From contig NZ_QAAD01000001.1 of assembly GCF_003046625.1 (NCBI RefSeq), positions 372,001 to 436,000 on the forward strand: a stretch of DNA of 64,000 bases. The letters run 5' to 3'. This document shows, one piece after another, positions 1,604 through 2,095 of the stretch. Numbering within the stretch: position 1 is the stretch's first letter; every line of letters begins with the position of its first letter. The notes below the pieces were generated by a model. It saw only the letters and a list, made by a program, of their open reading frames with translations. It had not been told where the DNA came from and made no database searches. The stretch comes from Mangrovibacterium marinum (GTDB lineage Bacteria; Bacteroidota; Bacteroidia; Bacteroidales; Prolixibacteraceae). The translations under genes were made by a program, and so were the position numbers.

Positions 1604-1637
1604 ATAAAAAAGCAGCTACAAATTAATGTAACTGCTT
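1604..1637 (-). terminator. Intrinsic terminator after the tRNA unit
   Basis: Read on the minus strand, AAGCAG and CTGCTT (1632-1637 with 1610-1615) form a stem, extended inward by TTACA/TGTA around an AT-rich loop, followed by TTTTTATTTT. It lies 10 bases past the 3' end of the tRNA, so it closes the tRNA transcription unit. Confidence 0.75.
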
Positions 1638-1647
1638 AATTTTAAAG

Positions 1648-1721
1648 TGGGCCCAGCTGGGCTTGAACCAGCGACTCCCTGATTATGAGTCAGGTGCTCT
1701 AACCAACTGAGCTATAGGCCC
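1648..1721 (-). tRNA. tRNA with CAT anticodon (tRNA-Met or tRNA-Ile2)
   Basis: A 74-nt cloverleaf on the minus strand. The acceptor arm GGGCCTA pairs with TGGGCCC (one G-U pair) followed by discriminator A; the D arm is GCTC/GAGC, the anticodon loop is CTCATAA, and the T arm carries GGTTCAA. CCA is not encoded. A CAT anticodon can be elongator Met, or Ile2 after lysidine modification of C34; sequence alone does not settle which. It is preceded on the same strand by three degenerate tRNA-like repeats that share its 5' half. Confidence 0.93.
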
Positions 1722-2015
1722 TGAAATATCTTTAATACTTCGTTTCTTCTACCAATAATCTGAACCTGCGACTCTCCCGATTTTAATCGGGATGCTCTAA
1801 TCAACTGAGCTATAGGCTCTGAAATATCTCTAACACTTCGTTTTTTCTACCAATAATCTGAACCTGCGACTCTCCCGATTTTAATCGGGATGCTCTAACC
1901 AACTGAGCTATAGGCTCTGAAATATCTCTAATACTTCGTTTCTTCTACCAATAATCTGAACCTGCGACTCTCCCGATTTTAATCGGGATGCTCTAATCAA
2001 CTGAGCTATAGGCTT
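1722..2015 (-). repeat. Three tandem 98-bp repeats, each a degenerate tRNA 5' half
   Basis: The motif GCTATAGG recurs on the plus strand at 1711 (inside the real tRNA), 1809, 1907 and 2005, an exact 98-base period. Units are 1722-1819, 1820-1917 and 1918-2015 and differ at only a few bases. In tRNA sense each has GAGCCTATAG or AAGCCTATAG, an intact D arm (GCTC/GAGC), an anticodon-like arm with a perfect 7-bp stem (TCCCGAT/ATCGGGA) closing only TAAA, and the T-loop TTC. The 3' half of the T arm and the acceptor strand is replaced by a 40-base AT-rich tail ending GATATTTCAG. They cannot form a normal acceptor stem, so they are pseudo-tRNAs. They lie between a promoter and the intact tRNA and are probably co-transcribed. 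Confidence 0.9.
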
Positions 2016-2063
2016 TCAATAAAATATCCAGCGACTGTATTTCTCAGTCATTTTTTCGGTTTG

Positions 2064-2095
2064 CAAGTTTACGACATTCGGACTAGAAAGACAAA
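2064..2095 (-). promoter_or_regulatory. Bacteroidota-type promoter for the tRNA/pseudo-tRNA unit
   Basis: On the minus strand TTTG (2095-2092) is followed after exactly 20 bases by TAAACTTG (2071-2064), close to the TTTG-N19-21-TAnnTTTG consensus of the Bacteroidota housekeeping sigma factor. It lies between lspA and the first 98-bp repeat, with a start expected near 2057. Confidence 0.6.

Follow-up and report, generated by a model that had tools for sequence, protein, structure and literature searches.

A tandem array of three partial tRNA copies in front of a tRNA gene of Mangrovibacterium marinum is probably (we put the chance at about 65%) a nuclease-less, tandemly amplified derivative of a cassette that invades, or homes into, tRNA genes. 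The array is tied to nuclease-bearing cassettes at tRNA genes, two of which lie in the same genome; this connection was missed in the preliminary description of the DNA.

The window, by which we mean the whole 64 kb stretch of DNA that was analysed, contains a single tandem array according to TRF, at 1664–2014, with a period of 98, 93% matches and a score of 602. It sits downstream of the signal peptidase II (lspA) gene at 2786–2130. The minus strand holds, in the direction of transcription from 2095 to 1604, a promoter, three 98-bp units, an intact tRNA with the anticodon CAT and a terminator, all where the preliminary description had placed them. That they form one transcription unit, as was then proposed, is plausible, and the promoter box is kept in congeners. 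The promoter was read against a Bacteroidota-type consensus with a TTTG −33 box, which we take to apply here. The parts are:

2092–2095, minus strand: −33 box TTTG of a Bacteroidota-type promoter (sequence reading).
2064–2071, minus strand: −7 box TAAACTTG, 20 nt from the −33 box (supported by its conservation in congeners, below).
2015–2063, minus strand: leader preceding unit 1, about as long as that of unit-less congeners.
1917–2014, minus strand: unit 1, comprising tRNA nt 1 to about 57, a palindromic anticodon arm and a tail (TRF, unit alignment).
1819–1916, minus strand: unit 2, structured as unit 1 (TRF, unit alignment).
1721–1818, minus strand: unit 3, structured as unit 1, its final base being the first base of the intact tRNA (TRF, unit alignment).
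1971–1988, no strand assigned: palindrome TCCCGATTAAAATCGGGA replacing the anticodon arm of unit 1 (unit alignment, genome palindrome scan).
1873–1890, no strand assigned: palindrome of unit 2 (same evidence).
1775–1792, no strand assigned: palindrome of unit 3 (same evidence).
1917–1957, minus strand: tail of unit 1, probably what is left of a GIY-YIG gene's 3′ end (nucleotide match and the G244 parallel, below).
1859–1819 and 1761–1721, minus strand: repeats of the tail in units 2 and 3 (unit alignment).
1647–1721, minus strand: intact tRNA, anticodon CAT, called tRNA-Met (tRNA calling, Rfam).
1606–1636, minus strand: terminator, a hairpin followed by a T run (sequence reading).

Each unit runs from the tRNA 5′ end to the T loop, with nt 27–44 replaced by TCCCGATTAAAATCGGGA, and continues as a tail of about 40 nt up to the next copy. 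The anticodon arm had been described as modified, and altered it is; its nature has to be corrected, since what replaces the arm is a perfect inverted repeat. Units 1 and 3 are 97% and 96% identical to unit 2, the units differ at 3–4 of their 98 positions, and the palindrome is the same in all three, a degree of similarity that fits the unequal crossing-over earlier offered as an alternative. The intact tRNA scores 72.3 bits against the Rfam tRNA model, and within the window no other Rfam family reaches its gathering threshold. Covariance-model scoring of the units, which had been suggested as a check, recognised none of the three as a tRNA, either with Rfam or by tRNA calling, and only 1647–1721 was called. 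The array contains no GIY-YIG nuclease gene. A short open frame in the leader (2051–2016, minus strand, MTEKYSRWIFY) has the same first four residues as the DksA/TraR-type protein whose gene lies upstream, as judged by that protein's likely start, and is probably a chance occurrence.

Partial tRNA copies recur beside an intact parent tRNA across the Bacteroidota and are of two types. The 5′-type, to which the window's units belong, stands upstream of the parent and has lost its 3′ end; the 3′-type stands downstream and has lost its 5′ end.

The order lspA, promoter and same tRNA is found in congeners and in other genera. The sequence TAAACTTGCAATCCGAAA stands before the window's tRNA, downstream of the signal peptidase II gene, in all three congeners (G001, G002 and G003). 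At this locus G001 and G002 have no unit at all, and G003 has a different unit, with an imperfect inverted repeat in the D arm. We examined 70 of the 99 family genomes that have the window's tRNA, chosen regardless of palindromes; the sample combines 30 loci already to hand with 40 that were fetched, part of the latter with no more than 500–600 bases per side. In the counts we dropped L224, which was flagged for a separate complete tRNA upstream. Partial copies lie upstream of the tRNA in nine of the 70, namely M. marinum itself, G003, G244, G242, G031, G268, G027, G018 and G028. A perfect GC-rich palindrome is present at seven of these nine loci and at two of the 61 without units. The palindromes themselves differ (TCCCGATTAAAATCGGGA, CCCCGATTCAATCGGGG, TCCCGAGTCCTCGGGA, TCCGCCAGCTGGCGGA, TCCGCCAGTTGGCGGA, TCCCGGTCATAACCGGGA and TCCCGATAGTTATCGGGA), and they occupy the D loop, the region between the D and anticodon arms, or the anticodon arm.

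These comparisons bear on the proposal that the units function as tRNA-like decoys, or as small RNAs set free when the tRNA matures. The units lie between a conserved promoter and a tRNA and so are likely to be transcribed, and the altered arm is predicted to fold as a hairpin, with folding z-scores for the units of −1.8 to −2.2. However, units are absent or different in the congeners, and because the palindromes and the arms that they occupy differ among genomes, the units are not one conserved RNA and keep no common fold. No conserved small RNA with a single fold was found at the 70 family loci, and the comparison of repeats among relatives, proposed earlier as a check, thus yielded no conserved unit. 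Palindromes elsewhere also break the D or T arm, and 5′-type units are without the tRNA 3′ half. We regard a function as decoys or small RNAs as very unlikely.

The same 70 loci contain seven GIY-YIG nuclease genes at the window's tRNA. Their reading frame is intact in G012, G015, G241 and G244, broken in G028 and G234, and cut by a contig end in G006, and in five of the seven (G012, G015, G028, G234 and G241) the nuclease gene is followed by a 3′ tRNA copy.

Large integrating elements classically target tRNA genes. In six genomes (G232, G256, G280, G284, G290 and G293), the window's tRNA recurs as 3′ parts, beginning at the anticodon region, 11–61 kb from the intact gene, which suggests that large integrative elements make use of its anticodon loop. 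The units of the window might accordingly be read as attachment-site scars of such elements, but the distant remnants are 3′ parts, whereas the window's units keep the 5′ part with a changed arm, and the 98-bp units contain no integrase; this origin is scarcely credible.

Complete cassettes are found elsewhere in the M. marinum genome. At tRNA-Arg(CCT) (C6:268 kb), a promoter flank is followed by a tRNA 5′ copy whose D loop holds a palindrome, a GIY-YIG open reading frame (PF01541, E 6e-18) whose stop codon is the UAG of tRNA nt 8–10, and the intact tRNA-Arg. In G001, G002 and G003 the same flank leads directly into one intact tRNA-Arg, identifying an insertion of about 300 bp in M. marinum. 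A search of 100 family genomes gave 30 loci, and seven of these, M. marinum included, show this 5′-type order and an identical stop offset, although the query ended in three residues from the tRNA-Arg 5′ end and may slightly favour such matches; six of the seven are at tRNA-Arg CCT and one at tRNA-Arg ACG, and all seven have a palindrome in the upstream copy. At the second tRNA-Met of M. marinum (L264, C1:149200–152500) two nuclease genes stand in tandem, and behind each of them lies a tRNA 3′ copy that carries TCCGGCAGCTGCCGGA. This tRNA is present in G001 and G003 with no nuclease genes, the intergenic region being otherwise diverged. Occupied and empty alleles in close relatives are thus seen at tRNA-Arg, at the second tRNA-Met and, when compared with G001 and G002, at the window's array. 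The T arm of the intact tRNA-Met at L264 is unlike that of the congeners and like that of the copies, as if the 3′ half had arrived with the element.

The closest parallel to the window is G244. There a palindromic tRNA copy is followed by a nuclease ORF with an intact frame, a promoter, an ORF-less unit, a second promoter and the window's tRNA in intact form. The ORF-less unit is a tRNA 5′ part that has a D-loop palindrome and is broken off in the T loop, and its tail starts with the last 26 nt of the nuclease ORF, as part of 45 identical nt. The nuclease-less unit of G244 is plainly the nuclease cassette in a deleted form.

The tail of the window's units, which directly precedes each next tRNA copy, was originally described as unrelated. 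When aligned with the end of the GIY-YIG gene linked to tRNA-Arg in the same genome, it is identical at 23 of 31 nt without gaps, and this match together with the G244 parallel makes a relationship to the end of a GIY-YIG gene probable. A score as high was reached against the whole gene in four of 5000 dinucleotide shuffles, and against the last 48 nt of the gene in none of 5000; none of 68 leaders of other loci scored as high against the gene. The match was noticed post hoc, the score of 15 is obtained with this one gene only (its six closest relatives give 8–13), and the tail is not significant as a peptide (684 of 5000 shuffles); for these reasons we treat as suggestive the reading of the tail as a remnant of the last codons of a GIY-YIG gene.

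The nuclease is encoded by a small ORF that often lies between the intact tRNA and downstream copies, with a match to the GIY-YIG domain PF01541 (E 1e-15). E values across related cassettes, including the two loci of M. marinum, range from 1e-15 to 6e-18. The nearest solved structures by profile are the UPF0213 protein BH0048 (E 1.3e-11) and SLX1 (E 8.3e-7). Among 18 nuclease sequences, Y6, Y17, G19, R27, H31 and E63 are invariant, and we take these to be the catalytic residues of a GIY-YIG nuclease. The stop codon often falls within a tRNA copy, either in the palindrome (...SEHPD*) or as the UAG at tRNA nt 8–10. The gene is under purifying selection as judged from sequence pairs: dN/dS is 0.09–0.25 in 12 of the 18 pairs listed, dS being saturated in the other six. 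Seven tandem, closely similar GIY-YIG genes stand at tRNA-Asn in G029 (L036:600–3950), where most of the copies have palindromes in the anticodon arm and T loop; some of these tandem copies differ by three non-synonymous and no synonymous changes.

Searching with the protein as query gave 26 loci in named genomes, from taxa that include Bacteroidales, Flavobacteriales, Chitinophagales, Ignavibacteria, Marinimicrobia, Patescibacteria and Deltaproteobacteria, with the proviso that these are often metagenome assemblies whose taxon labels may err. A same-strand tRNA was called no more than 430 nt upstream at 16 of the 19 named loci whose upstream sequence spans 400 nt or more (18 of all 26), and in the order sample at 16 of 20 such loci (18 of all 30); the two sets share some contigs, and for L185 the nearest tRNA call is a palindromic copy. 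The last five residues of the first nuclease query derive from a palindromic tRNA copy; they are not used by the search patterns, and the order-sample query left them out. The nuclease gene occurs in 33 of the 36 genomes that have the tRNA-palindrome pattern described below and in 59 of 162 others (p 8e-10), some of the matches being the same locus. This genome-level co-occurrence is weak on its own because relatives of the nuclease are common, being present in 73 of 100 family genomes. With one query, collections of phages and plasmids gave no match at E 1e-5, and thus no vehicle was seen.

The near identity of the units and the dispersed palindromes of the genome would fit plain tandem duplication, in which slippage or unequal crossing-over would have duplicated the leader and the 5′ part of the tRNA, and the spare copy would have decayed and gained a dispersed palindrome, with no nuclease involved. 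A dispersed palindrome is indeed available: the class TCCCGA-N4-8-TCGGGA occurs at 32 sites in the M. marinum genome, against one for the reversed control, and four of the 32 are in tRNA copies. Among the other 28, 26 were viewed and none is tRNA-like by eye. The palindrome TCCCGATTAATCGGGA and a variant of it also occur outside tRNAs in this genome, at L048 (C3:195 kb) and L066 (C39:9–11 kb), in surroundings that we take to resemble group II intron RNA. Duplication alone should, however, leave palindrome-free copies too. A scan that took no account of palindromes, looking for two D arms with starts 68–98 nt apart, matched 18 of 198 genomes of the order. In 13 of these both copies are complete tRNAs, and in the other five (G053, G067, G082, G099 and G180) the upstream copy is truncated, in every case before tRNA-Met. 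All five have an inverted repeat replacing or beside an arm, with a mismatch in G053, and in G099 one of three units is degenerate; the perfect palindromes at seven of nine family loci, noted above, point the same way. Furthermore, the tail is no copy of the locus's own leader (the best shared run is 7 nt), and elsewhere nuclease genes occupy the same architecture. Plain duplication is therefore unlikely. A point against the cassette model is that it predicts no palindrome by itself.

Within the order, 36 of 198 genomes contain the palindrome in its D-arm context (GAGCRTCCCGA-N3-9-TCGGGA), as do 19 of 118 across the phylum; the reversed control gave none in either sample. Thirty of these loci were fetched, of which 11 have no intact tRNA adjoining (nine have none and two only the copy itself). 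Six of the nine lie no more than a few hundred bases from a contig end, and L089, also among the 30, is plainly non-tRNA.

Near an intact parent tRNA, 113 palindromic partial copies were found, and in 90 of them the palindrome stands in place of the anticodon arm; both figures over-represent TCCCGA, since the D-arm-pattern loci were found via the window's palindrome. The scan for D arms, the 70-locus set and the nuclease sets obtained by protein query were chosen independently of that palindrome. Of 57 upstream copies, 43 start at nt 1–3, and a single one, L194 at tRNA-Leu, seems to reach the 3′ end, its parent being doubtful. Downstream copies (n = 56) keep the 3′ end in 40 cases and the 5′ end in five. 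Among 55 locus-sides, 35 have TCCCGAT or TCCCGAC as the arm and the rest are spread over 16 others, which makes 18 different 7-nt arms in all. The pairing of both arms provides no extra evidence, because the search demanded perfect palindromes.

The anticodon of the parent lies within the palindrome interior at 14 of 57 locus-sides, against 3.9 expected by permutation (one parent is itself a palindromic copy), and where a tRNA has copies on both sides they share the palindrome arm in eight of 15 cases, against 1.7 expected; our Fisher and permutation figures take loci as independent, which related genomes are not. The retained anticodon suggests that the arms may have been remodelled in place. 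Insertion of one ready-made hairpin was also considered and is weakened by the same observation, as well as by the diversity of arms. At the start of contig C15 of M. marinum (L021:104–186), at the very end of the contig, there is a full-length tRNA-Val-like copy with the palindromic arm TCCCGATTTAACATCGGGA, and G003 has two similar copies (L029). G111 has three tandem near-complete tRNA-Ala copies (L083); these retain the anticodon loop TTGCAA, enclosed in a palindromic stem of greater length.

Since the palindromes occupy D, anticodon and T arms, they could also be REP-like elements that are moved by a RAYT/Y1 transposase with a preference for tRNA hairpin loops. The genome has six Y1_Tnp matches, one of which (L044, C1:69 kb) has CCCGGGGCAACACCCCGGG on both sides, as expected of a RAYT with its REP. 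The TCCCGA palindrome, however, is found at none of the six Y1_Tnp loci, which weakens this explanation despite the flanks of L044, and the presence of the parent anticodon in the palindrome interior again suggests remodelling in place. We consider movement by a transposase of this kind distinctly improbable.

Returning to the cassette, we envisage the following course of events. A full 5′-type cassette comprises a palindrome-armed tRNA 5′ part, a small GIY-YIG gene and a fresh tRNA 5′ part. The fresh 5′ part completes the resident 3′ part, which leaves the host one functional tRNA, and the old 5′ part stays upstream as a scar. Insertion at the anticodon or D arm does no harm when the insert supplies what the tRNA lacks, as these cassettes do. 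The nuclease would cut tRNA genes that have no cassette, and repair of the break from a cassette-bearing allele would copy the cassette in. Unequal recombination between the repeated tRNA parts would then generate arrays, such as the three units in the window and the seven nuclease genes in G029. In the window, the nuclease gene would have been lost, probably leaving its last codons as the tail, and the remaining 98 bp would have been amplified to three copies. The palindromic arm may, as a guess, keep the scar copy from being cut or from being processed as a tRNA.

More broadly, and tentatively, with slightly less than even confidence, we suggest that these cassettes may represent widespread minimal mobile elements, mainly of Bacteroidota, that home into tRNA genes using an SLX1-like GIY-YIG nuclease of fewer than 100 residues and a spare half of the target tRNA. 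Each insertion would rebuild a working tRNA and leave the old half with a palindromic arm, either nuclease-resistant or a cruciform substrate, and the window's array would be a MITE-like, nuclease-less form. In the open-access literature searched, judged by titles and the starts of abstracts and with subscription journals mostly outside, we found no tRNA-linked GIY-YIG cassettes with palindromic tRNA copies; in the parts available to us of a phylogenomic study of GIY-YIG nucleases (PMC1564403) we found nothing on tRNA genes as sites.

Elements of only about 100–570 bp seem to use tRNA genes by carrying half a tRNA. If so, many of the ‘pseudo-tRNAs’ in Bacteroidota assemblies would be explained, together with many of the contigs that end at tRNA genes, and so would small GIY-YIG proteins in which translated tRNA sequence supplies the last residues. 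The cassette family also offers a simple biochemical test of the substrate of a UPF0213-type nuclease. By profile, the UPF0213 and SLX1 nucleases are the nearest solved relatives of the cassette nuclease, and to our knowledge they are not recognised as parts of tRNA-linked mobile cassettes.

The rtT repeats of Escherichia coli tyrT are, like the window's units, tandem repeats that contain a tRNA fragment within a tRNA transcription unit. Unlike the window's units, they hold the tRNA 3′ end, lie downstream, and have no altered arm.

REP and CGTC-tagged repeats are short palindromes dispersed in bacterial genomes (PMC3733652), whereas the palindromes described here are associated with tRNA arms and, in many cases, with a nuclease gene. 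SegB, a free-standing GIY-YIG homing endonuclease of T-even phages that adjoins tRNA genes, is reported to cut within them and to be needed for segmental or tandem amplification of the tRNA region by recombination (PMC13096335). Both the cutting and the amplification proposed here would therefore have a precedent. In both systems a GIY-YIG nuclease stands next to tRNA genes, cutting by the cassette nuclease being a proposal. The present system differs in that it is chromosomal, its nuclease is about 80–98 amino acids long, and its gene overlaps tRNA parts and is flanked by tRNA copies with palindromic arms.
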